Source of the DNA: Acidimicrobiales bacterium
Lineage (GTDB): Bacteria; Actinomycetota; Acidimicrobiia; Acidimicrobiales; SZUA-35
Length of the DNA stretch: 52,835 nucleotides
NCBI GenBank assembly: GCA_020630065.1
Contig: JAHDCC010000023.1
Location: 1-52,835 of the forward strand
Direction of reading: 5' to 3'
The notes beneath the pieces were generated by a model. It saw only the letters and a program-made list of their open reading frames with translations, was not told the origin of the DNA and made no database searches. The stretch's first letter is position 1. Every line of letters begins with the position of its first letter. Below, piece by piece: positions 6,189 through 45,236 of this stretch. Position numbers and translations under genes: made by a program.

Positions 6189-7305
6189 AACCATTCGAGT
6201 CGGCCTAATCGGCTCAGGCTATATGGGTAAAAGTTTCTCGTTGGCCGTCGGTGCTGCCGAAACACTGTTCGGTCTGCCGGTTGCCTTGGTTAAAGAAATG
6301 GTTGCCACGTCGAACGAGACTAGCGCTAGCAACGCAGCAGCGGAGTTGGGGTTTGTTAGATGGACCGCCGACTGGCGAGAACTTGTAGCCGATCCAAACG
6401 TTGACGTCATCATCAACTGCACCCCGAATCATCTGCATCGAGACATCGCTCTTGCCGCGTTGGCCGCCCCGAAACCGATCTTGTCTGAAAAGCCGTTGGG
6501 GCGAACTAAAGCAGAAGCCTTAGACATGGTGCAGGCTGCCGACAAGGCCGGCGTCGCCAATATGGCGGGCTACACCTACATGAAGAACCCGGCGACAAGG
6601 CTAGCCAAAGAGATTCTCGACTCGGGCGAAATCGGTCGTGTCTTTCATTTCCGTGGCTTGCACATCGAAGACTATCTGAGCGACCCTTCCTTGCCGATTA
6701 CTTGGCGTTTACAGAAAGCCCAAGCAGGTTCTGGTGCTGTTGGCGATCTGTGCCACATCATCAATATGGCACACTACTTGTGCGGCGAGATCACAGACGT
6801 CGTAGCCGATTCGAGCATCGTAATACCAGAGCGTCCAGACGGGACCCCGACGGGAACTTCGACGGTTGATACCGACGACCAAACCCATATTCTGTGTCGA
6901 TTCGAAAGTGGTGCACTGGGCTATCTTGAACTCAGTCGCGTTGCCAGTGGCCGCAAGATGGGGTTGGGGTACGAGATCAACGGCAGCGACGGAACTATCG
7001 TGTTCGACCAGGCTCGTATGTCCGAACTAAAACTGTTCACCACTAAAGATTCACCGGACCGCCAAGGGTTCAGAACGATTCTGCTGGGCCCGGAGCACAG
7101 CGACTACGGATACTTCAACAGTGGCCCCGGCCATGGCTTGGGATACAACGACATGGTGGCTATCGAGGTGCGAGATTTCATTCTCAGCGTGCTCGATGGT
7201 CGTCCGGTTTGGCCCAACTTTGCCGATGCCTATCACACTGAAGAAGTGCTAGATGCGGCCATTCAGTCGACCGAGACTGGCAAGTGGGCTAGGGTCGGCT
7301 CGTAG
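6178..7305 (+). CDS. Gfo/Idh/MocA-family oxidoreductase, last gene of iol unit A
   Basis: A 375-residue NAD(P)-dependent dehydrogenase with the GSGYMGKSFS glycine loop near residue 12 and the EKP motif in ILSEKPLGRT. The C-terminal domain contains GSGAVGDLCHIINMA, whose DLCHH-like segment is where the family keeps a catalytic His. It overlaps the aldolase by 11 bases and has TAGGA seven bases before its ATG. It is distinct from the dehydrogenases at 2235 and 20547, so the locus encodes three family members, probably for different inositol isomers or derivatives. The substrate is unknown. Confidence 0.8.
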   Translation: MNDETIRVGLIGSGYMGKSFSLAVGAAETLFGLPVALVKEMVATSNETSASNAAAELGFVRWTADWRELVADPNVDVIINCTPNHLHRDIALAALAAPKPILSEKPLGRTKAEALDMVQAADKAGVANMAGYTYMKNPATRLAKEILDSGEIGRVFHFRGLHIEDYLSDPSLPITWRLQKAQAGSGAVGDLCHIINMAHYLCGEITDVVADSSIVIPERPDGTPTGTSTVDTDDQTHILCRFESGALGYLELSRVASGRKMGLGYEINGSDGTIVFDQARMSELKLFTTKDSPDRQGFRTILLGPEHSDYGYFNSGPGHGLGYNDMVAIEVRDFILSVLDGRPVWPNFADAYHTEEVLDAAIQSTETGKWARVGS

Positions 7306-7321
7306 ATCCCCCCTAGAACGG

Positions 7322-7357
7322 ATGGTGGAGGCCTCCCTACGTTTTGGCCTCCACCAT
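7322..7357. terminator. Bidirectional terminator between units A and B
   Basis: A 12-bp perfect stem (7322-7333 with 7346-7357) lies in the 58-base gap between two converging genes. The loop carries a TTTT run and TTCTC follows the right arm, so it can serve the plus-strand inositol unit and the minus-strand thiolase unit. Confidence 0.8.
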
Positions 7358-7363
7358 TCTCAC

Positions 7364-32104: not shown

Positions 32105-32422
32105 CGTCTTGGCTGTTTGTGGTTGTGGTCGATCTGATTTGCGTCTGTCATTCTTGAATGACAAGCGCCTACCGTGCTTTCTTCGGGGACAAAAATGTGA
32201 GGCATCCACCTGGCCTGCCAGGGTAGATACCGGCAGCCGAAGTAATAAATTGCATAGATCTCCTGAGCCCGCGACGCTGTACATATCTGTATCGACCATG
32301 ATCCCGTCATGGTTAAGCCATTCACAGAAGTCACACTCAACAATGTCGACTGGTCCATCAGTAATGCGACGTTACGACTTCTACTAACCCACTCAGCCCG
32401 CCAGGTTGGTATCGTCAAAGAT
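32105..32422. other. Divergent intergenic region upstream of hom
   Basis: 318 bases between the minus-strand GAF-like gene and hom. It has to hold two divergent promoters. Frames on both strands run into it (an in-frame ATG for hom at 32309) but show no conserved protein sequence. No clear riboswitch, T-box or attenuator was recognised. Confidence 0.35.
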
Positions 32423-33745
32423 GTGTCTAGAACAGTTCGAATCGGTGTACTTGGATGTGGAACAGTGGGCAGTGGCCTGCTTGAACTTCTCGAGAGCCGA
32501 CGCAGTCATATTTCGAAAACCTCAGGGGTTGACCTCGAGGTTGCAGGTGTAGCGGTGAGGAGCGCTAGCAAAGACCGGAATTACCCGGTTGCTAGTGAAC
32601 TCCTGACTACTAAAGCCGAAGAGCTTGTCACCTCAGACGACGTCGACATCGTAGTCGAGCTCATCGGTGGGATCGAACCGGCACGAAGCCTATGTGTAGC
32701 AGCGCTCGAAGCAGGAAAGCCTGTTATCACAGCCAACAAAGAGCTTCTCGCCAACGTCGGTTTCGAACTCTACGAACTCGCCGACGCCCATGGCGTAGAT
32801 TTTCTTTACGAGGCATCAGCGGCTGCCGCGATTCCGATCGTTCGGTCGTTACGAGAGTCGCTGGTAGGCGAAGACATTACCCGCATTATGGGAATCGTCA
32901 ACGGCACAACCAACTATATTCTGACCCGCATGGACGAAGAGGGCGCCGACTACAGCGCCGTGTTGTCGGACGCGCAACGGTTGGGGTACGCAGAACGAGA
33001 CCCGACCGCAGACGTCGACGGGTTCGACGCCGGAGCAAAAGCCGCCATTTTGGCGTCGGTCGCGTTCGGTAAGAAAGTGGTCGCCGGGGACGTATACCAC
33101 GAAGGTATTTCAGCGGTCACGCAGAACGATATCGAGTTCGCAAGAAACCTCGGATACGTTATAAAGCTGCTCGCTGTTGCCGAACTTTTTGAACCCTCAG
33201 ACGAATCAACCGAAACCGAAATCGGGGTACGCGTTCACCCGACTATGGTTCCAAAAGATCATCCGTTGGCTTCGGTTCGAGGGTCGTTTAACGCAGTGTT
33301 CGTCGAAGGTGCCGCCGCCGGAGAGCTGATGTTCTACGGTCGAGGCGCTGGCGGTTTACCGACAGCTTCAGCCGTACTCGGCGACTTGATCGACGCCGCC
33401 ACGAACCTCAAACGAGGGGCACACGAACCAGTGCCAGCTGGGGACCGCGCCACCATCCGACCGATCGACAGTCTGCACAGCGCCTACTACCTCAACCTTG
33501 AAGTAGTCGATTCTTCAGGCGTTCTAGCGGAAGTAGCGGCCGCGTTTGGTCGACATAACGTTTCGATTCTGTCGATGGAACAGACCGCGTTGCCTGCCGA
33601 TGAGGTCCGCTCCGGTAAAGCCGAAGCACGACTGATATTTATCACCCACGTGGCGCAAGAGTCCGATATGCAGGCCACGGTCGCCGATCTTCGAAAACTT
33701 GACGTTGTTGCCGGCATTGTCAACATGATGAGAGTTATCGCCTAA
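32423..33745 (+). CDS. hom: Homoserine dehydrogenase
   Basis: Hom reduces aspartate semialdehyde to homoserine for threonine and methionine. From the GTG at 32423 the protein has 440 residues: the NAD-binding VRIGVLGCGTVGSG at once, VELIGGIEPAR, KPVITANKELLA, the substrate-binding FLYEASAAAAIPIV and GIVNGTTNYIL, and a C-terminal ACT domain (YYLNLEVVDSSGVLAEVAAAFG) for feedback by threonine. The ATG at 32309 would add 38 residues without family support. thrC begins at the base after its stop, so both form one unit. Confidence 0.93.
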   Translation: MSRTVRIGVLGCGTVGSGLLELLESRRSHISKTSGVDLEVAGVAVRSASKDRNYPVASELLTTKAEELVTSDDVDIVVELIGGIEPARSLCVAALEAGKPVITANKELLANVGFELYELADAHGVDFLYEASAAAAIPIVRSLRESLVGEDITRIMGIVNGTTNYILTRMDEEGADYSAVLSDAQRLGYAERDPTADVDGFDAGAKAAILASVAFGKKVVAGDVYHEGISAVTQNDIEFARNLGYVIKLLAVAELFEPSDESTETEIGVRVHPTMVPKDHPLASVRGSFNAVFVEGAAAGELMFYGRGAGGLPTASAVLGDLIDAATNLKRGAHEPVPAGDRATIRPIDSLHSAYYLNLEVVDSSGVLAEVAAAFGRHNVSILSMEQTALPADEVRSGKAEARLIFITHVAQESDMQATVADLRKLDVVAGIVNMMRVIA

Positions 33746-35128
33746 ATGATCTCATACCAATCGACCCGAGGCTCAGCCCCGGCCCTACCATTTACTGATG
33801 TTCTGTTAGCCGGTCTCGCCCCTGACGGCGGACTGTACTGTCCTTCAGAAATTCCGTCGCTCCCGGACGTTTCGACCGCTACCGATTACGTGTCGTTCGC
33901 CCAGAGAATCATGTGGCCGTTCGTTGAAGGCACAATCGGCCAAGACGATTTCGATGCCCTCGTAGCAGACTCATACACCCGGTTTCGTCACGACGAGATC
34001 TGCCCGGTCGTCGAGCTGGGCACAGACGAATACCTGCTCGACCTGACCCTCGGCCCGACGTTGGCGTTCAAAGACGTCGCCTTGCAACTCGTCGGGCGAC
34101 TGCTCGACTTCGAACTCACCAGAAGGGGACAACGGGTAACCGTTCTAGGAGCGACCTCGGGTGATACCGGTTCGGCTGCGATCGAAGCATTAGCGAACCG
34201 GAGCGCTATCGACGTAGTGATCCTTCATCCCGAAGGTCGAGTTTCTGACGTTCAACGTAAACAGATGACCACAGTGACGGCTTCGAACGTCCACAATGTG
34301 GCGGTGGCTGGCACTTTTGACGACTGCCAAGATCTGGTTAAAGCGGCGTTCGGAGACGTGGCGATTCGTGACCGGTACCGGCTGGCGGCAGTCAACTCGA
34401 TTAACTGGGCTCGAGTAATGGCCCAAATCGTGTACTACGTTTGGTCGGCGCGAACTGTCGCCCCCGACGGGTCCGCCGTTTCGTTCAGTGTTCCTACCGG
34501 TAACTTCGGAAACATTCTCGCCGGTTGGTACGCCAAATCGATGGGTCTCGCCGTCGACCAGTTGATCGTCGCTTCGAACCGCAACGACGTGTTGACCCGC
34601 TACTTCGAAACCGGTGCCTTAGACGCTGAAGCGGTCGTGCCGTCATTCAGCCCAAGCATGGACATTCAGGTCTCGTCTAACTTTGAACGACTTTTGTGGG
34701 AAGCGAGTGGTCGAGACGGCCAAGCGATTCAAGACCTTATAGCGACGTTCAGATCATCAGGCCACGTTGAAGTGCCCTCCGCCTGGAACGAACGGGTTTT
34801 CGGTGAGTTCGTAGCTGGCCGACTTTCTGACGAAGGTACCTTGAACGAAATCGAACGTGTCTATTCAGCCTCGAACGTTCTGATCGACCCACACACCGCG
34901 GTCGGTGTCGACGTTGGACGTTCGGTTCATGCCGGTTCAAACTCGCCACTTATTACGCTCGCTACCGCTGCGCCAGCGAAATTTCCAGACGCGGTTGAGA
35001 AAGCTGTTGGGTTCAGACCTGAACTGCCCGACCATCTCGCAGACCTGTTTGAGCGGCCAGAAAAGTTTGAGAAGGCGCCGAACGACTTGGCGGCGATCGC
35101 TGACTTGCTATCCAAAATTTCGGGCTAG
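33746..35128 (+). CDS. thrC: Threonine synthase
   Basis: ThrC converts O-phosphohomoserine to threonine. At 460 residues it belongs to the long, E. coli/yeast-like class, with the N-terminal LLAGLAPDGGLYCP, the PLP-Lys in GPTLAFKDVAL, GATSGDTGSAAIEAL and SVPTGNFGNILAG. Actinobacteria often use the shorter class followed by thrB. Here no homoserine kinase follows; a GNAT gene comes 11 bases later. Confidence 0.93.
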   Translation: MISYQSTRGSAPALPFTDVLLAGLAPDGGLYCPSEIPSLPDVSTATDYVSFAQRIMWPFVEGTIGQDDFDALVADSYTRFRHDEICPVVELGTDEYLLDLTLGPTLAFKDVALQLVGRLLDFELTRRGQRVTVLGATSGDTGSAAIEALANRSAIDVVILHPEGRVSDVQRKQMTTVTASNVHNVAVAGTFDDCQDLVKAAFGDVAIRDRYRLAAVNSINWARVMAQIVYYVWSARTVAPDGSAVSFSVPTGNFGNILAGWYAKSMGLAVDQLIVASNRNDVLTRYFETGALDAEAVVPSFSPSMDIQVSSNFERLLWEASGRDGQAIQDLIATFRSSGHVEVPSAWNERVFGEFVAGRLSDEGTLNEIERVYSASNVLIDPHTAVGVDVGRSVHAGSNSPLITLATAAPAKFPDAVEKAVGFRPELPDHLADLFERPEKFEKAPNDLAAIADLLSKISG

Positions 35129-36598: not shown

Positions 36599-37270
36599 AT
36601 GACTCGACGAGGCCGGGCAGCCTCGGTAATCCGGGAATCGAATAAATATGCAGAATTCTTGAAAGGTTCGACCTCTAACCAGTACGTACTACACATGACC
36701 AACCTTTCGGTGCATCACGGAACCGCATGGCAGAGATCTCTCGGGTTGGTTCCTGAGGTATCTTCGGAGTTGATGGCAATCGACCGATTCCGTATTCTCT
36801 ACGACCAGCTTTACGACGATCTTTGGCGTTACTGCCAACGTCGTTCATCGTCTCATGAACAAGCCACAGATGTTCTCAGCGAAACGATGCTAGTCATGTG
36901 GGAACGGATCGACGACATTCCTCCAGGAACGGGAGCCCGGCCATGGCTGTTTGGTGTAGCTCGGAATCAGCTACGCAAACGACACGAGACAACATCTCGT
37001 GTCGACCGGCTAGTCGAACGTCTCAAGCTCGAATACTCCTCCCGTCGCACGCCGTCCGACCCGGCTGAAGAAGCGAACGCCCACTCAGTGCTTGAGACGT
37101 TGCGTGAGCTTCCCGAAGATGACCAAGAACTTCTACGCCTTCAAGCGTGGGAAGGGTTGACCCACAGCGAGATCGGTCAAATGTTTGGAGTAACCGAAAA
37201 CGCGGTAGCGATACGTGTTCACAGGGCCCGTCAACGATTCGCTGCTCTACTAGCAGAAGGTGAGGAATAG
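36599..37270 (+). CDS. ECF-type RNA polymerase sigma factor
   Basis: A sigma-70-family factor with region 2 (FRILYDQLYDDLWRYCQRR...ATDVLSETMLVMWERID, with the promoter-melting RPWLFGVARNQLRKRHE) and region 4 (LPEDDQELLRLQAWEGLTHSEIG...TENAVAIRVHRARQRF). The start is unclear: ATG at 36599 gives 223 residues, ATG at 36773 (after GGAG) gives 165, closer to the usual ECF length and starting just before region 2. The next gene, four bases on, encodes a membrane protein that is probably its anti-sigma partner. Confidence 0.85.
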   Translation: MTRRGRAASVIRESNKYAEFLKGSTSNQYVLHMTNLSVHHGTAWQRSLGLVPEVSSELMAIDRFRILYDQLYDDLWRYCQRRSSSHEQATDVLSETMLVMWERIDDIPPGTGARPWLFGVARNQLRKRHETTSRVDRLVERLKLEYSSRRTPSDPAEEANAHSVLETLRELPEDDQELLRLQAWEGLTHSEIGQMFGVTENAVAIRVHRARQRFAALLAEGEE

Positions 37271-37273
37271 CTC

Positions 37274-38275
37274 ATGCCAGAACCACAAGAACCCCAGTCG
37301 TGGGACGACAAACTGCGTTCCGCCGACCCGTTTCGGGACGCCCACGAAGACATTCAAGTCAGAACTCAGATTTTCCAGGAGATAACAATGAACCAAAAAA
37401 ATACGCAACACTCATCTGCCCAGCCTGACTTACTTCAACGGGCTGCGAGCTCCCACAAGAAGCCCAACAGGTACACTCGCCCGTTGGTGGCGATGTCGAG
37501 TGCGGCTGCCGTAGTCGCTGTCGCCTTGCTCGGATTTTCGCTCGCTAGTGCACCGTCAGCGTCGGCTCAGATGCTGGAGGCGGCACAGAACTCGGTGTCG
37601 GAGGATGAGGGCGAAATCGTTGTGACCGCTCAACTCGAAGCTAAACCGGTTGACGGCTCCGACATTGACCCAGAACTTGCCTCCGAACTCGGCGTCGTCG
37701 AAGGAACACTCGATTTCGACTTCGACGGTGACAACTACAGTTTCGACGCTTCGATAGACGACGGCGACGAAGGGTTCTCACCACAAGCCCGTCTGGTTGA
37801 CGGAACCTTGTACGGGTCGGAAAGCGGAGATGCCTGGTTCGCTCTTGACGCCGAAGAAAGTAACAGCTTCGCTCAGCTGGCTGCGAACTATATTCCCGGC
37901 GTCCAGAACTTCAACGGCGAAGCGCTTGAACAGCTAGTTATTCTCACCGACGACGTCACCAAAACCGAATCAGATGGAGTTGTCACCTACTCCGGAATGG
38001 TGGAAACCTCCGAAGTTCTGGCCTTGGGGGCTGACGAACTTCCTGCTGTGCTTCTCCCATTCCAACTAGCGGAGCAGGAACAAGTACCTTTACCTACGCA
38101 GCTAAAAGTTGAAATGGTTATCATTAATGATATAGCAGACGTGATTACCGTCAGCATTGACGAATACGAAGTAGACGGTGTCACAGTTAGTGGTACTGTT
38201 ACAACAGACTACTCCGGAGTTGGGGAACCACAAGAAATAGTTGCCCCACCTGCCGAAGCGATTCAGACGCCGTAG
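37274..38275 (+). CDS. Probable membrane anti-sigma or sigma-associated protein
   Basis: A 333-residue protein starting three bases after the sigma gene. A cytoplasmic N-terminus of about 70 residues (DDKLRSADPFRDAHEDIQVR), one membrane helix (PLVAMSSAAAVVAVALLGFSLASA) and a large acidic extracytoplasmic domain follow. That domain has repeated beta-strand segments (GTLDFDFDGDNYSFDASID, VDGVTVSGTVTTDYSG) reminiscent of LppX/LolA-like lipoprotein folds. No zinc-binding HxxxCxxC anti-sigma motif is present, so the partner role rests on position and topology only. Confidence 0.6.
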   Translation: MPEPQEPQSWDDKLRSADPFRDAHEDIQVRTQIFQEITMNQKNTQHSSAQPDLLQRAASSHKKPNRYTRPLVAMSSAAAVVAVALLGFSLASAPSASAQMLEAAQNSVSEDEGEIVVTAQLEAKPVDGSDIDPELASELGVVEGTLDFDFDGDNYSFDASIDDGDEGFSPQARLVDGTLYGSESGDAWFALDAEESNSFAQLAANYIPGVQNFNGEALEQLVILTDDVTKTESDGVVTYSGMVETSEVLALGADELPAVLLPFQLAEQEQVPLPTQLKVEMVIINDIADVITVSIDEYEVDGVTVSGTVTTDYSGVGEPQEIVAPPAEAIQTP

Positions 38276-38303
38276 TTGCCAAAAGGTCGTTCCCTCCCGC
38301 AAC

Positions 38304-38327
38304 GCCCGGGGCCATCAGGCCCCGGGC
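38304..38327 (+). terminator. GC-rich hairpin after the sigma operon
   Basis: A perfect 10-bp GC stem (38304-38313 with 38318-38327) with an ATCA loop, in the 73-base gap before the ABC operon. There is no T-tract. It argues that the following operon starts at the TTG at 38349, since longer frames would run through it. Confidence 0.65.
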
Positions 38328-38348
38328 ACTACGAATGTAGGAATTGAT

Positions 38349-39263
38349 TTGTCTAGTCTGGTATCAGCCCGTGGAGTGCAGAAGCGATATGGTTCGTTTT
38401 CTGTTTTGAACTCGGTTGACTTTGAAATAGAACGAGGAATAACAGGCCTGTTGGGTGCCAACGGCACGGGAAAGACCACCCTTTTGGGGATGATACTGGG
38501 TCTGCACCGAACCGACGGCGGCACACTCGAAGTGCTTGGCATCGACCCGTGGCACGCCGGGCACGAAGTGCGGGCCTTGTTAGGGTACGCCCCCGAGCAT
38601 CATGTCCTGCCACCTGACGTGAAGGCCGCCGATTTTGTTCGCCACGTAGCCGAACTGCATGGCCTTCCACGGGCCGACGCCACCGTACGCGCCAGCGACG
38701 CTCTTTGGCTTGTCGGGTTAGGAGAGGAACGGTTCCGCCCGATGGGAACCATGTCAACAGGGCAGCGTCAACGGGTCAAACTCGCCCAAGCGATCGCCCA
38801 TGACCCACAACTCGTCCTGTTGGATGAGCCGACCGACGGGTTGGACCCGCTGCAACGAGATAACATGCTCGACTTGATCAAGTCGGTTTCATCTGAATAC
38901 GGAATAGACATTATTTTGTCTTCCCACCTGCTCGACGAAGTCGAACGAGTATGCGACAGCGCCGTAATTATCGGCGACGGTCAGACGATCGCATCGGGGA
39001 CCCTAGACCAACTCAGAACACAGGTCGGCGGTGGAACTCGTGTCGAACTCGACGCTAATGACGATCAGGTCGAACTGATAGCTAACACCCTTCGAAGCGA
39101 CTACACGGTTTCGGTCGAACGACGTTGGTTGACAATTGGAGGTGCCCCTGATGAAGTTGGCTCCCGAGTTTTAGAACTTTGTGACCAGGCTCGTATTGGT
39201 GTAATCAGATACGGCCCGACGCGTCGCTCATTAGAAGAGGTCTATTTGGGAGAATCGGCATGA
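38349..39263 (+). CDS. ABC transporter ATPase, first pair
   Basis: A 304-residue ABC-2-type exporter ATPase: Walker A LGANGTGKTT near residue 41, signature MSTGQRQRVKLAQA, Walker B VLLDEPTDGLD and the switch His in LSSHLLDE. The C-terminal 90 residues after the cassette are typical of drug or lipid exporters. The start is TTG at 38349, with AGGA six bases before; longer frames would begin inside the previous gene. Its stop overlaps the permease start (ATGA). Confidence 0.88.
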   Translation: MSSLVSARGVQKRYGSFSVLNSVDFEIERGITGLLGANGTGKTTLLGMILGLHRTDGGTLEVLGIDPWHAGHEVRALLGYAPEHHVLPPDVKAADFVRHVAELHGLPRADATVRASDALWLVGLGEERFRPMGTMSTGQRQRVKLAQAIAHDPQLVLLDEPTDGLDPLQRDNMLDLIKSVSSEYGIDIILSSHLLDEVERVCDSAVIIGDGQTIASGTLDQLRTQVGGGTRVELDANDDQVELIANTLRSDYTVSVERRWLTIGGAPDEVGSRVLELCDQARIGVIRYGPTRRSLEEVYLGESA

Positions 39264-40138
39264 CCCAACCCCAAATATTTGACCGTGGGTATCGCCGATT
39301 TGAAGGCCCCCGCACAGGAAAGTCGGGGGCCTTCAAAAGTCTCGTCATCTATAGTGTGCGAAGCTCACTTGGGTTGGGGAGAGCGGCTCGCCATAAGCTG
39401 TTTCCGGCCGCCGTCATAGTGTTCGCTTTTGTGCCGGCGGTTGTATTTATTGGTGTCGCAGCGTTGTTGCCAGACGAATTAGTCACGCAAGAAGAGCTCT
39501 TGCCTACCTACTCGGAATACTACAATTTTGTGATCGCCGACATCTTCTTGTTCGCCGGTTTTGTGGCGCCAGAGCTGCTGTGCACCGACCGCCGGACATC
39601 GATGTTAGGCGTTTACCTGGCCTCGCCACTCAGTCGAACATCGTATGTTCTCGGTAAAGCCGTCAGCACGTTGCTGATGGTGCTGACGGTGACGCTCGGC
39701 CCGCCACTTCTGTTCTTAATCGCACGATCGTTGCAGAACCTTGGGCCAGACGGTTTCGGAGACTGGATAGCAACGTTCGGTCGGATCGTTCTGTCATCGA
39801 TCATAATCGGAAGTGTGTATTCGGCCATCGCGTTGGTCGCTAGTAGTATGACCGACCGTCGCGCCGTAGCGTCGGCGGCGACGTTGCTGACGATTCCCGG
39901 CTCAGCCGTCATTACCGACCTTTTGGTAGTGGACGCCAACTTCACACCTCACTTGCGTCTACTTAACCTGCTGTATTTACCCCGAGCGTTAGTGTTCAGA
40001 GTTTTTGGTGAAACCTCCGAAGGTTGGCCTCGGGCGGAGAACCCAACGGCATCGCTTTGGTTGGCATGGATCGCCGTCGTAGGGTTGTCGGCTTTTGTGG
40101 TTTGGTTCCGATACCAGCGATTGTTGGTGCGCCGATGA
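39260..40138 (+). CDS. ABC-2-type transporter permease, first pair
   Basis: A 292-residue membrane protein with six hydrophobic segments, for example LFPAAVIVFAFVPAVVFIGV, FVIADIFLFAGFVAPELL, LMVLTVTLGPPLLFLIA and the C-terminal LWLAWIAVVGLSAFVVWF. The pattern of six spans with a cytoplasmic N-terminal RRFEGPRTGKSGAF fits ABC-2 permeases. It overlaps both flanking ATPase genes by four bases, so each permease directly follows its ATPase. Substrate unknown. Confidence 0.82.
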   Translation: MTQPQIFDRGYRRFEGPRTGKSGAFKSLVIYSVRSSLGLGRAARHKLFPAAVIVFAFVPAVVFIGVAALLPDELVTQEELLPTYSEYYNFVIADIFLFAGFVAPELLCTDRRTSMLGVYLASPLSRTSYVLGKAVSTLLMVLTVTLGPPLLFLIARSLQNLGPDGFGDWIATFGRIVLSSIIIGSVYSAIALVASSMTDRRAVASAATLLTIPGSAVITDLLVVDANFTPHLRLLNLLYLPRALVFRVFGETSEGWPRAENPTASLWLAWIAVVGLSAFVVWFRYQRLLVRR

Positions 40139-41097
40139 CGGTTCCTCCAACCCCAGGCCAACCACAGTCTCCCGACATTTCGATAGAGGTTGACCGGGTG
40201 TCGAAATCGTTTGGCACGTTGACGGCAGTGTCGGACCTGTCACTCACGTTTTCGCCTGGTGTCACCGCGCTGCTGGGTCCTAACGGGGCAGGAAAGTCGA
40301 CCCTCATTCGGTTACTGGTCGGCCTGGAACGCCCGTCTACGGGTCGGGTTCGAATATTCGGAGGAGATCCGAGAACATCTGCTGATACCCGCAGCAAAGT
40401 CGGCATCGTCCCGCAACAAGACGGCATGTTTGGACGGTTGACAGCTTTTGAAACCGTTCATGTTTCTGCCGTGTTGTCTAAGCTGGACGATGCCGAAAGG
40501 CTGGCCCGAGAAGCGTTGCAAACAGTTGAGCTGGACCCGGACATGACCCGCTCGGTAGACGCATTCTCAAAAGGTATGCGGCAGCGTGTCAAAGTTGCCC
40601 AAGCCCTCGTACATGATCCGATGGTGATCATGCTGGACGAACCATTAAACGGTTTGGATCCTCGCCAACGACGTCACATGATTAGTTTGTTTAACCGTCT
40701 CGGGTCCGAGGGTAAAACTGTGATCGTTTCCAGTCACGTGCTCGATGAGGTGGAACGCTTCGGGTCGCATGTGGTGGTTTTAGCCCGTGGACGACTGGCC
40801 GCAACCGGAGACTACCGGGCAATTCGGAGCCTGATGGACGACCAGCCAGCCCGGATACGCATCGTCTGTGACAACGCCCGAACCGTCGGCGCCGAGCTGA
40901 TGGCGTCGGGTTTGGTATCCCACGTTGAAGTGGTGGCTGTCGATACTGTCGAAGTTCGGACCGTTGATGTCCGAACCTTTCGTGTCGGGTTAACTTCGAT
41001 TTGCCACAAGTTACAGGTCGCGCTGTCCGAAATCAGTCCGATTGACGACGATCTTGAAAGTGTCTTTAAGTATCTAGTTGAAGGTCCGGCGCGATGA
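40135..41097 (+). CDS. ABC transporter ATPase, second pair
   Basis: A 320-residue ABC ATPase: Walker A LGPNGAGKSTLIRLL, signature FSKGMRQRVKVAQAL, Walker B VIMLDEPLNGLDP, switch His SSHVLDE. The ATG at 40135 overlaps the previous stop by four bases; an in-frame extension into the permease gene is not credible. It is the second of two ATPase-permease pairs in tandem; the two ATPases are related but not close copies. Confidence 0.88.
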   Translation: MTVPPTPGQPQSPDISIEVDRVSKSFGTLTAVSDLSLTFSPGVTALLGPNGAGKSTLIRLLVGLERPSTGRVRIFGGDPRTSADTRSKVGIVPQQDGMFGRLTAFETVHVSAVLSKLDDAERLAREALQTVELDPDMTRSVDAFSKGMRQRVKVAQALVHDPMVIMLDEPLNGLDPRQRRHMISLFNRLGSEGKTVIVSSHVLDEVERFGSHVVVLARGRLAATGDYRAIRSLMDDQPARIRIVCDNARTVGAELMASGLVSHVEVVAVDTVEVRTVDVRTFRVGLTSICHKLQVALSEISPIDDDLESVFKYLVEGPAR

Positions 41098-41876
41098 CGG
41101 CACTCGGTTCAGCCATGCGTTCCACCCCAGCGCTGGCATTGCTTTGGCTGTTTACACAAAATCTCTTGACCAGAGGCAAGATGGTGTTGGCGGCCGCCCT
41201 CACCTTTATTTGCATCATTCTTGGCGTTGCCATTCGACAAAGCACGACCGCTGAGCCTGACGTGACCAGCGTCGGGTTCGTATACTTCTTTGGTTTGGCG
41301 TTGATGGTGCCGGTTCTGTCGTTAGTGATTTCAAGTTCAGTGCTCGGCGATTTGGTCGAAGACGAGTCGTTGGTTTACATCTGGATGCGTCCGGTGAGTC
41401 GAGCGACGATCGCGGTTACAGCGTGGATAGCGTCGCTGTTTCTGACGTTACCGGCGACGGTGATTCCGCTGACGCTTTCGGTTGTGATTGGTTCATCTAA
41501 CAATTTCGAGCTGATGTTAGCAACGGCCGGTTCAGTGGCCTTAGCCGTGATTGCCTACTCGGGGTTATTCACCCTGTTGGGTTTGCTCACCAAACGGGCC
41601 CTCATAGTCGGTTTGCTGTATCTCTTTATCTGGGAATTTTTTGTCGCCAGGGTAGGGGGTGGAGCGGCGAAACTTTCGATTAGCACGTACCCTTCGGCCG
41701 CGCTGGTGCGATGGATACCGGCAGAAACCTTGGAACGGTGGAGAGACGTCGACCCGCTCAGTTTGGAAATCCTGGAGGAGCGTTCGATGGAGGCAGCGAT
41801 GATAGTACCCCCAGCGGTCGCGCTGATATGTGTAGGTCTGACTGCATTGAGACTGGCTCGATCCAGAATCTCGTAA
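41094..41876 (+). CDS. ABC-2-type transporter permease, second pair
   Basis: A 260-residue membrane protein with about six spans (MVLAAALTFICIILGVAI, FFGLALMVPVLSLVISSSVLG, TAWIASLFLTLPATVIPLTL, LATAGSVALAVIAYSGLFTLL, LLYLFIWEFFVARV, IVPPAVALICVGLTAL). It completes the four-gene ABC operon, each junction overlapping by four bases. Two heteromeric exporters or one four-part exporter are both possible. Confidence 0.8.
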   Translation: MTALGSAMRSTPALALLWLFTQNLLTRGKMVLAAALTFICIILGVAIRQSTTAEPDVTSVGFVYFFGLALMVPVLSLVISSSVLGDLVEDESLVYIWMRPVSRATIAVTAWIASLFLTLPATVIPLTLSVVIGSSNNFELMLATAGSVALAVIAYSGLFTLLGLLTKRALIVGLLYLFIWEFFVARVGGGAAKLSISTYPSAALVRWIPAETLERWRDVDPLSLEILEERSMEAAMIVPPAVALICVGLTALRLARSRIS

Positions 41877-42127: not shown

Positions 42128-43762
42128 TTGAGTGATCAACTTATTGCTGAGCGCAGTGGCCTCGCAAAAAAAGATAAAGGCGAGCTTCAAGCCATCGTTT
42201 CGGCATTAGGTGGCAAACCTAGCGGCCGGCTACGCAAAGCCGAGTTGATTGACCAAATCATCGAGCTATCGGGTGCTGAGTTTGCTGACGATGACAACAA
42301 AGACGAGCAACAGACCTTGGCAGTAGATCAGGCCGAAGAGGGCGCTGAGGACACTAAAGACGACTCAGACAACTCAGACAACGGCGATTCAGACGAAGCA
42401 GCCGAAACTGACGACGCCGACGATGAAGAAGAAAGCTCCGACGAACCTGAACAAGAGGTTGAAGAGCCAAAGCAAGAGTCTTCCAACAAAAAAGACCAGA
42501 GTTCGTCCCGGCAGAATAAGAACAACAATAAACAAGACGACGAAGATGGTGAACCAAATAAACGCCGTCGCCGTAGCCGCGGACGAGGTCGCAGCCGAGA
42601 TCGAGAAAACGCCGGAAACGACCCGATCGTCGCTGAGCCATTTGCTGTCGAAGGCTACCTAGAGCTACGTGATGAGGGCTATGGGTTCTTGCGAGTCGAC
42701 AGTTTCTTGCCCAGCCGAGAAGACGTCTACGTATCGGTCAAACAAGTTCGCCAGTACGGGCTACGAAAAGGTGATCATCTCACCGGTCTGTCTCGTCCCG
42801 CTAACCGCAACGAGAAAAACCCTGGGTTCCATCAGATCGACTCCGTCAACGGCCAATCTCCAGAAGACGCTCGCCGTCGGCCTTCCTTTGACAGCATGAC
42901 AGCCGTTTTTCCTGATCACGAAGTTCAGCTTCAGTCCGGTGAGGGTGATGAAAAGCTGGCTCCACTCCTGGTAGATCTTTTTGCACCGTTAGGTCGAGGG
43001 CAGCGAGTGTTGCTTTCCGCATCTCCACAGGCGGGCACAACTACATTCGTTCGAGATCTCGCTCAATCCATTGAACAAAACAATCCAAACATCGAATTGC
43101 TTGTTCTGCTGGTCGATCAACGTCCCGAGGAAGTATCTTGGCTCCGGTCAGAGCTTTCTGACGGCGAGGTTATCGCCTCCTCCTACGACCGTCCACCAGA
43201 GGAACATTGCGCGGTCGCCGAGATAACTATTGAACGGGCCAAACGCCTCGTCGAGTTTGGTCGAGACGTATGTTTGGTAGTCGACAGTTTCAGCAAACTG
43301 GTTCAGGCTTACCAGGCCACTTCAAATCAAAACGGTCGAGGTTCAACCGCTGTAGACGGAAACGCCCTCTACGCAGCTAAGAGACTATTCGGAGCGGCAC
43401 GAAAACTAGAACAAGGCGGATCATTCACGATGATTGCCACCGCTCAGACCGGTTCTGATGAGGCTGAAGCCGTTGTTCAAGAACTCGCTAGCGCCGCCAA
43501 CTCCCACGTCGTTTTGGACAAAGAACTAGCCCAAGCAGGAGTTTTCCCAGCTATCGACGTTACAGCGTCGCATACCCGCCGTGAAGATATCCTGTTGGGT
43601 GACGAACAAGCGGTCGAATTTAGTCGGTTACGTTCGGCCATTGTCGACCAAGTAGTTTCGGACGAATCAATGTCGGTTGGCACCCAGAAACTCCATCAGC
43701 AAATAGAGTCTTCGGATAGCATCGACGACTTTCTTGCAGCAATTATGAAATCACTGTCGTAA
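42128..43762 (+). CDS. rho: Transcription terminator Rho homologue with degenerate ATPase site
   Basis: At the locus expected for actinobacterial rho (before rpmE). The 544-residue protein has the N-terminal Rho_N segment ([16 protein letters not shown]), a long acidic then basic linker (to about residue 165; [15 protein letters not shown]), the OB-fold [16 protein letters not shown], and the ATPase core. The P-loop, canonically PPKAGKT, reads SPQAGTTT: the Walker A Lys is Thr304 (codon ACA at 43037-43039). [13 protein letters not shown] replaces DSITRLARAY, and the Q-loop EFKGTGN is replaced by [17 protein letters not shown]-like and [18 protein letters not shown] are kept. TTG at 42128 is chosen, seven bases after AAGGAG. 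Loss of ATPase activity is an inference. Confidence 0.85.
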
Positions 43763-43793: not shown

Positions 43794-44102
43794 ATGAAGC
43801 CAGATATTCACCCCAACTATCGTCCTGTTGTGTTCATGGACACATCAGCCGATTTCAAATTCCTAACCCGGTCTTCGGCTAAAACCACCGAAACAATCGA
43901 ATGGGAAGATGGAAATACCTATCCGCTCTACAAGGTAGAAATTTCTTCCGAGAGCCATCCATTCTTTACCGGACAGATGAAGATCATCGACACCGCCGGT
44001 CGAGTAGAACGCTTCGAGCGTCGCTACGGTTCTCGCCGCAACAAGTCGGCTGATGCAGCGCCGGAAGCTGCGGCCCCAGAAGCTGACGCATCTGAAAGCT
44101 AA
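43794..44102 (+). CDS. rpmE: Ribosomal protein L31, zinc-free type B
   Basis: A 102-residue L31 of the cysteine-less type: [23 protein letters not shown] at the start and [27 protein letters not shown]. The CxxC zinc motif of type A is absent. An Ala/Glu-rich tail of 25 residues extends beyond the usual end. No ribosome site is obvious. The location after rho is the standard one for rpmE. Confidence 0.9.
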
Positions 44103-44125
44103 TCTTGCGGCTTTGTCCGCAAGAT
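44102..44125 (+). terminator. Hairpin at the rpmE stop covering the next start codon
   Basis: A 9-bp perfect stem (44102-44110 with 44117-44125) with a CTTTGT loop starts at the last base of the rpmE stop codon. The ATG of the next gene (44124-44126) lies in its right arm. It may be a terminator or a translational gate; there is no T-tract. Confidence 0.5.
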
Positions 44126-45236
44126 GCCCGCTGTAGTGGAAGCACAACCAAAGAATCAACTGCCAGTGGCCGCGAAGCTCGCGGCCTTGGCCGCGTTATC
44201 ACGAACCGTTTCTGGCTTCGAACTTTCAGAGACCGCTGAATCCGTTGGCGCTGGCGTGCAAATCGACAGCTCGTCCGGAAAAGAACTACGCCGGGTGTTC
44301 TATTTCGGCGGCGACGACCTGGCCGCACTTGGCGCCGCAGTCCGATGGGCCGCCGTTCAAGACGCCGACGAACTCCACCTACTGTCCGAGGTCGGTGTCG
44401 GCAACGAAATAGCCCGCCGGTCAAGCTACATAAACACCGACTTTAAGGTGACGACCTGGGAGACCAGCGACGGCGAATTCGCCGAACTCCAACCATCAGA
44501 ATTGTCGAACCCGCCTGAACTCCCTGACTCTTATCGGCGATTCACCGACTTGATCATCGCCGCCGGTGCCAAACCGGTAGACGACTATGGTCGTCTCGTC
44601 GCTGAAGTTAACGGTTTAGAAGTAGCTAGGGTCACTAAACCTAGCGAATCATTAGGCGAAGAAACATCAGATGGTGAAACAGTTGCCTCTCAAACCGACG
44701 AACCTGTTCTCGAGATCGGGGTCGGACAAGCAGATCGAGAACTCCACCAACTGATCCACGGCGTCATTGAACCGTTGAATGACGAATCACCCGAGGCGAC
44801 CGACAACGAAGCCCTACTTGGTCGACTCACGAAAGTGGTCGAAGATGTTGCCCAGATGCGTACCACCGGCGGTGTCGACCATCCACTAACCCGAGTCGCG
44901 CAACAACGGTGGATACGTTCGCTGGTTACCGAAAATCCCGGACTGGTTGACGCAGCCGAATTAGTGCCGGTGCCTCCGCTACGTCCACGCGAAACTGTTT
45001 TGGGTGTTGACGCTGCGGCAGCGGTCGGCACGTCTTTGGACGGTGACCCACTTGTCGTGGTCTGTTCCAGCGGGGTGGATCTAGATTTGGCTGCTGAAGC
45101 CGGAGACTACCGCCACCGATACGACGATCAAGCCAAACTCGTGGTGTTGGTGCCCGAACGCGACCTTTATCTCGTTGAGCCGACCATCTTGGAATTGCTG
45201 TCCAACGTGTCAGTCCGCCCAGCCCCCGACCTGTAG
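44124..45236 (+). CDS. Unrecognised protein in the rpmE locus
   Basis: A 370-residue soluble protein without signal or membrane segment. The N-terminal half has short Rossmann-like stretches (RRVFYFGGDDLAALGAAVRWAA, ADELHLL, FTDLIIAAGAKPV) and VAEVNGLEVARV; residues 175-250 are an acidic, likely flexible part; the C-terminal part again shows DPLVVVCSSGVDLDLAAEAGDY and KLVVLVPERDLYLVEPTI. The pattern suggests a nucleotide-handling or structural fold, but no family is recognised. It takes the place where prfA usually follows rpmE. Translation may depend on melting of the hairpin that holds its ATG. Confidence 0.6.
   Translation: MPAVVEAQPKNQLPVAAKLAALAALSRTVSGFELSETAESVGAGVQIDSSSGKELRRVFYFGGDDLAALGAAVRWAAVQDADELHLLSEVGVGNEIARRSSYINTDFKVTTWETSDGEFAELQPSELSNPPELPDSYRRFTDLIIAAGAKPVDDYGRLVAEVNGLEVARVTKPSESLGEETSDGETVASQTDEPVLEIGVGQADRELHQLIHGVIEPLNDESPEATDNEALLGRLTKVVEDVAQMRTTGGVDHPLTRVAQQRWIRSLVTENPGLVDAAELVPVPPLRPRETVLGVDAAAAVGTSLDGDPLVVVCSSGVDLDLAAEAGDYRHRYDDQAKLVVLVPERDLYLVEPTILELLSNVSVRPAPDL

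Follow-up and report, generated by a model that had tools for sequence, protein, structure and literature searches.

Rho is the textbook ATP motor, and it is debated whether it ends transcription by pulling on the RNA or by an allosteric effect that first disarms RNA polymerase. In the window, by which we mean the whole 52,835-nucleotide stretch of Acidimicrobiales DNA that was analysed, the reading frame at the canonical rho locus (42128..43762, + strand) encodes a Rho whose P-loop reads SPQAGTTT and contains no Walker A Lys. The locus raises the question of whether such a Rho, the only one found in its genome, can still work as a motor and, if not, what it is kept for.

This rho, which we consider motor-dead on the predictions given below, was assigned a TTG start with AGGAG seven bases ahead; in-frame alternative starts are ATG 42122 and TTG 42077. 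Against NCBIfam, the protein scored 355 bits with NF006886 (cut-off 315) and 352 bits with TIGR00767 (cut-off 509.45), and Pfam recognised Rho_RNA_bind (PF07497) together with an ATP-synthase-type nucleotide-binding domain (PF00006). The primary RNA-binding domain, of the OB/cold-shock type (42647..42865, + strand; 83.8 bits with PF07497), is kept in its residues, shows no acceleration and is preceded by a 12-residue patch. An AlphaFold model of the core as a monomer (best of five models pLDDT 83, the others 65-70; pTM 0.84) had Rho 8q3p as its top PDB match in Foldseek (TM 0.91 by query length), so that both Pfam and the model point to the Rho fold, an OB RNA-binding domain joined to a RecA-like domain; the predicted model speaks for a kept fold and says nothing on activity. 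Assignment to the short paralogue form paralog_Rho2 (NF041509) was rejected: similarity to that model in the Rho core reached 303 bits, under its 628-bit cut-off, and the window protein differs from it by an N-terminal insertion, by the usual rho neighbours and by its single copy.

We then read the motor residues from an alignment that included the solved M. tuberculosis Rho (7oqh), with which the pairings for the window motifs matched; residue numbers (K181, K184, E211, R212, D265, G287-G288, K326, R353, R366) are those of E. coli Rho. Within the P-loop (43022..43045, + strand), the position of the Walker A Lys, K184, is taken by T321 (codon ACA, 43037-43039) and that of K181 by Q318 (CAG, 43028-43030). 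The initial annotation had reported this loss of the Walker A Lys at the canonical locus, and the frame, the motif strings and the Thr encoded by ACA are present as it described. To its list we add the catalytic Glu: the position of E211 in DERPEE is Q348 in DQRPEE (CAA, 43118..43120, + strand). The Q-loop (43325..43357, + strand), which had been described as lost, is indeed changed, but it is remodelled rather than gone, with one residue deleted, G287-G288 turned into Thr-Ala and the basic residue kept as Arg. Likewise, the string ELASAANSH was correctly given as the replacement of EFKGTGN, but this block (EEFKGTGN to QELASAAN, 43478..43501, + strand; its Lys is K336) is distinct from the R-loop, whose own Lys (K326, in TGSK) is replaced by Asp (43457..43459, + strand). 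The position of R353 is Gly (43538..43540, + strand), while the Walker B Asp (D265), the Arg valve (R212) and the Arg finger (R366; 43577..43579, + strand) are all retained.

Compared with E. coli Rho (1pv4, 6xas; TIGR00767), the window protein shares the fold (TM about 0.9 to solved Rho chains), the primary RNA site, the Walker B Asp, the Arg valve and the Arg finger, but is without the Walker A Lys, the catalytic Glu and the R-loop Lys, and has an altered Q-loop. The closest solved sequence is M. tuberculosis Rho (7oqh; E 1.9e-83), which shares the N-terminal insertion and has Thr at the R-loop position but keeps Lys359 and Glu386, and which the excerpts of PMC4499133 and PMC8828861 describe as a true though weak motor; a passage of the latter also calls the catalytic residues highly conserved in divergent Rho factors. 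Judged by its sequence, the window Rho falls short of what a functional motor would need at the Walker A Lys, at the catalytic Glu and in the Q-loop and R-loop of the secondary RNA site. From general knowledge of P-loop ATPases, such a protein is very probably incapable of hydrolysing ATP, and without ATP hydrolysis it would not translocate. The change extends beyond the motifs: the ATPase domain differed by 0.55-0.59 from those of ten canonical family members, whereas the same members differed by 0.19-0.28 from L004, and the RNA-binding domain differed by 0.20-0.41, compared to 0.21-0.42 between those members and L004. The number of residues involved and the divergence of the ATPase domain, next to an unaccelerated RNA-binding domain, rule out a sequencing error, as had been argued from the spread of the changes. 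The original observation is thus confirmed and is wider than first noted.

To place this gene, we examined its copy number and its neighbours. The source genome (3.70 Mb, 81 contigs, 95.43% complete) yielded one Rho; the search for a second rho that had been proposed gave only one other TIGR00767 match (28 bits, C28), which covers an F1-beta-type P-loop. Downstream of rho lie rpmE (43794..44102, + strand), encoding a type B ribosomal protein L31, and a conserved ORF (44124..45236, + strand), both of which served as synteny anchors; upstream lie hom (homoserine dehydrogenase; 32309..33745, + strand), a neighbour of rho in relatives, and thrC (threonine synthase; 33746..35128, + strand). Of 80 named rho loci examined together with flanks of up to 6 kb, 77 carry a homologue of rpmE, 68 one of the next ORF and 54 one of hom, indicating that the window rho sits at the ancestral locus. 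The P-loop at these loci reads PPKAGKT in 78 of 80, and PPGGGQT and APGAGVT in the other two. The paralogue with a structural role that had been offered as an explanation is rejected, since the genome gave a single Rho and the genes around it also flank rho in relatives. The ORF at 44124..45236 matched nothing in Pfam or NCBIfam at E 0.001 and represents a still unnamed family that is associated with the rho locus. Between thrC and rho (36599-41876), the window carries an ECF sigma factor and, by eye, apparently two ABC transporter pairs; the sigma factor had no match in the 80 named loci and the first ABC-like protein matched in two, so that this interval looks lineage-specific.

We next asked how the Lys is distributed among relatives. 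In the window's family, 37 of the 39 genomes searched had a Rho, one each (E 1e-30), most of them canonical; the Lys was absent from the window protein, from five members of g11, two of g4, two of g5 (replaced by Arg) and one of g10. Close relatives with a canonical P-loop had been named as evidence against the initial annotation. Many relatives do have one, but others are also without the Lys, and because these lost it separately, the canonical relatives place the loss in this lineage and do not refute it. We built an rpoB tree from 25 genomes, 24 in the family plus an outgroup (30 were requested, of which five gave no rpoB match). It required at least five changes between kept and lost Lys, three of them forced by strongly supported branches, and bootstrap trees required 5-6. 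If the Lys was never regained, this would amount to at least five losses in the window's family. In each of two genomes (G030, G032), two separate contigs carry an rpoB match that exceeds the family cut-off.

The same loss was found more widely. Of 397 genomes drawn from the order, 366 had a Rho at E 1e-40 or better, 286 of these exceeding the family cut-off, and at least 38 of the 366 had no Lys, a minimum because most Rhos over the cut-off were not inspected individually. Inspection covered 66 of the 70 low scorers; the four others (G246, G342, G373, G400) are split or contig-edge Rhos, and G223 (about 1e-151) and G504 were also left out. A phylum sample, with a Rho in 361 of 396 genomes, gave 17 further Lys-less Rhos among 28 low scorers inspected, all in families outside the order; two of the 17 surfaced only at a looser threshold. 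Altogether, 58 other Rhos from the phylum have no Lys at this position, and every one is the sole Rho match in its genome. Both states were seen in 12 families (f1, f3, f16, f19, f26, f27, f34, f40, f58, f59, f103, f116), eight of which show replacements other than Arg. Provided that these families are single clades and that the Lys was not regained, this implies at least 12 independent losses. Other outcomes were also observed. In seven species of f59 (g69; L211-L217), the P-loop is fully erased, as in LLTASGTRSASPLI. In f103, L237-L242 and L244 keep the Walker A Lys, but the catalytic Asp-Glu is lost and about 20 residues of the Q-loop region and the R-loop are deleted, which represents a different order of motor decay. 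Three genomes of 99% completeness (G050, G431, G490) gave no Rho match even at E 1e-20, pointing to complete loss alongside motor loss, and further f83 and f106 genomes gave none at E 1e-40.

To describe what accompanies the loss of the Lys, we compared 139 complete Rho sequences, after 12 of 151 aligned rows (truncated, masked or duplicate) had been dropped; the truncated L210 remains and gives the 0.00 minimum. The set comprises 42 sequences that are canonical by motif, 59 Lys-less sequences and 38 that keep the Lys but have other motifs changed, proportions that are no frequencies, because low scorers were fetched on purpose. K184, DERPEE, the Q-loop GG and the EEFKGTGN block define the canonical set and are 42/42 in it by construction or nearly so. 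Median identity of the ATPase domain to the canonical consensus was 0.81 for canonical, 0.44 for Lys-less and 0.51 for Lys-kept altered sequences, a gap that is in part due to the same selection; for the RNA-binding domain the corresponding medians were 0.73, 0.67 and 0.69. The primary-site residues are largely retained in Lys-less Rhos (Y80 in 59/59, F64 and D78 in 58/59 each, E108 in 57/59, R66 in 58/59 plus one Lys), and the F62 position is aromatic only in 51/59. By contrast, the basic residue of the R-loop, which is not a set-defining trait, is present in 40/42 canonical sequences, in 10/59 Lys-less and in 10/38 Lys-kept altered ones. K184 is replaced by Arg in 23 of the 59 Lys-less Rhos and by other residues in 36, and 30 have lost the catalytic Glu, whereas the Walker B Asp is kept in 58 and the Arg valve in 49. 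The Pro and first Glu of RPEE are kept in 59/59. Persistence of the Walker B Asp and of this Pro-Glu pair where there is no working ATP site perhaps reflects ring assembly.

We also compared the rates at which the two domains diverge. The ratio of RNA-binding to ATPase divergence averaged 1.09-4.07 in all six canonical genus groups (4 of 51 pairs were opposite), compared to 0.30-0.80 in all seven Lys-less groups (g4 and g5 with one pair each) and 0.49-0.57 in all five Lys-kept altered groups, a comparison in which low-score selection may favour groups with a ratio below 1. Group g68 was excluded from this comparison; its near-identical pair (0.006 vs 0.005) shows no reversal. In the five closest pairs per group, dN/dS was well below 1 in g69, g151, g11 and g36 where dS was unsaturated; for close pairs of g69, g151 and g36, it was 0-0.12 in the RNA-binding domain and 0-0.22 in the ATPase domain, and in g69 at most 0.12 in both, although in the very closest pairs of g69 and g36, with few changes, the order of the domains was equal or opposite. 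In f95 and f103, the ATPase domain gave 0.30-0.49 and 0.38-0.78, respectively, over the five closest pairs per group, and constraint there is weaker and nearer to relaxed decay. The collection contains a single genome of the window's genus, and selection on this rho was therefore judged against more distant kin only. With this scope, the gene does not look like a free relic, and constraint appears to have shifted from the motor to the RNA grip.

Controls were run on the 44 of the 59 Lys-less genomes that are at least 90% complete and at most 5% contaminated. What we take to be the F1-beta-type P-loop pattern had exactly one intact match in each of the 44, which makes the decay specific to Rho and rules out a general decay of ATPases or poor genome quality. 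Loss of the partner NusG was rejected as well, one NusG being present in each of the 44. At the thresholds used, none had a second Rho match. Among the 44 is G602, in which the Lys is replaced by Arg and which is listed with one contig and 100% completeness.

Taken together, these results support, as far as sequence goes, the core of the initial interpretation, namely that the sole Rho at the canonical locus either lacks ATP-driven function or is a reshaped enzyme. The window protein is probably an ATPase-dead, RNA-binding ortholog of Rho, the only Rho found in its genome, which has turned non-motor and is kept by selection. How it acts is a more tentative matter. A non-motor Rho may grip nascent RNA through its retained primary RNA-binding site and work either by itself or, together with NusG, as an open ring bound to RNA polymerase; the elongation complex would then be paused, masked or allosterically inactivated without the RNA being pulled out, and transcript ends would be set by other means, such as hairpins. 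We regard this scheme as a serious possibility, and action on nascent RNA and RNA polymerase without pulling as the likeliest mode. That the same motor loss occurred many times independently, with the RNA grip kept, suggests that Rho may have a motor-free use, and a broader and more speculative proposal, which we consider rather doubtful as it stands, is that Rho has long had a function independent of its motor, in which RNA guides it to capture RNA polymerase and to inactivate or pause it; in many actinobacteria this function would suffice on its own, and their Rho would be a natural separation-of-function form able to end or regulate transcription without ATP.

Published work on motor-bearing Rho offers partial precedents. 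In a passage of PMC8964686, E. coli stand-by Rho binds RNA polymerase first and waits, and release is generally assumed to be allosteric rather than motor-driven; in one of PMC9908020, an open Rho ring on RNA polymerase is thought to alter the enzyme before translocation, with a later motor step postulated by the authors. The window Rho would have in common with these (PMC8964686 and PMC9908020, as excerpted) the proposed action on RNA polymerase before or without translocation but, unlike E. coli Rho, which has a motor and for which that later step is postulated, it would keep the non-motor step only. For M. tuberculosis Rho, the excerpted text of PMC4499133 states that unwinding and termination are inhibited when the catalytic Glu is mutated, and uses this need for the catalytic Glu to counter an earlier proposal that the protein acts independently of its motor; it also describes slow release with non-hydrolysable analogues, a possible residual motor-independent destabilisation. 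Since the catalytic Glu is needed there, a Rho without the Lys, the Glu and the R-loop Lys should fail as a classical terminator. Full-text literature searches surfaced no report of a motor-less Rho among the papers listed; the two principal surveys of Rho diversity, Moreira 2024 and D'Heygere 2013, which lie outside the coverage of those searches, may mention such forms.

The main rival to action on nascent RNA and RNA polymerase is a role outside transcription, as an RNA chaperone, an RNA store or a condensate scaffold acting through the disordered acidic and Arg-rich N-terminal region. The 12-residue patch ahead of the RNA-binding domain and the kept primary RNA site would suit such a role, and condensation of a Bacteroides Rho has been published, where, according to the excerpt of PMC13269538, it raises termination activity. 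Against this, a simple RNA binder would need no conserved Rho ATPase fold, and N-terminal net charge is slightly more negative in Lys-less than in canonical Rhos (median −3 vs 0), so that no gain of basic charge is seen; we consider a role outside transcription unlikely.

It is more improbable still that the window protein is a reshaped but working enzyme, whose substituted residues still hydrolyse NTP and drive a slow or altered motor. Retention of the Walker B Asp and the Arg valve in most Lys-less Rhos, the kept fold of the predicted window model and the conservative nature of the Lys-to-Arg replacements all speak for it. These replacements, however, account for the minority of cases; the window has Thr and Gln at the K184 and E211 positions, about half of the Lys-less Rhos have also lost the catalytic Glu and 49/59 the R-loop basic residue, and the P-loop of g69 is unrecognisable. 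Moreover, the lost residues vary by lineage, a pattern more suggestive of decay than of a single new active site.

Decay of the whole gene, with Rho termination dispensable and rho a slowly eroding relic, likewise has little probability. It could account for the graded loss of the motor, with other motifs changed in the 38 of 139 sequences that keep the Lys, for the genomes without a Rho match, such as G050 at 99% completeness, and for the higher dN/dS in f95 and f103. But apart from one TGA each in G291 and G386 (g151), the Lys-less matches contain no in-frame stop; dN/dS is well below 1 in the four groups named above; and the RNA-binding domain is the more constrained one in group averages, the syndrome recurring with the same part kept. 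Finally, an artefact, whether a sequencing or binning error or a second Rho hidden in the missing 5% of the genome, is highly improbable, for although the assembly is a draft in 81 contigs and ACA is one base from AAA, many residues are changed, rho lies mid-contig among its usual neighbours and none of the 44 Lys-less genomes of at least 90% completeness, G602 included, has a second Rho match.

A non-motor Rho, kept by selection for its RNA grip, would bear on the debate over how Rho ends transcription: if the motor has been discarded at least a dozen times while the RNA-binding face was guarded, these proteins would be natural separation-of-function forms in which the non-motor step is directly testable. 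Annotation pipelines that label Lys-less genes termination factor Rho may misstate their activity.

Because transcript ends might be set by hairpins in genomes with such a Rho, we counted hairpins between genes, using a home-made gene finder. Hairpins with a U-tract were few at convergent ends in all five genomes (3/48, 3/70, 0/66, 1/64 and 1/64), and at wide tandem gaps only G013 stood out (4/34). Stems of at least 10 bp occurred in 8/21 convergent gaps of the window genome, 8/25 of G013 and 3/26 of G018, the three Lys-less genomes, compared to 3/23 in G027, 1/28 in G017 and 2/36 at named loci, the canonical material being two genomes and 78 named loci. Pooled, this gives 19/72 vs 6/87 (Fisher p 0.0009), by gap although the real unit is the genome; Lys-less G018 showed no enrichment at its convergent ends, and tests of the window genome against single genomes were partly weak (p 0.08 for G027, 0.04 for G018, 0.003 for G017). 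The folding z-score at convergent ends was −2.25 in the window genome, compared to −0.3 to −0.9. The pattern fits a replacement of Rho-dependent ends by hairpins, but it is suggestive only, a lead to which we give little weight because, according to the excerpt of PMC13289151, Rho-processed ends of E. coli also carry hairpins without U-tracts. Within the window, a hairpin that has a stem of 14 bp and lacks a U-tract separates a convergent gene pair at 7305-7363.
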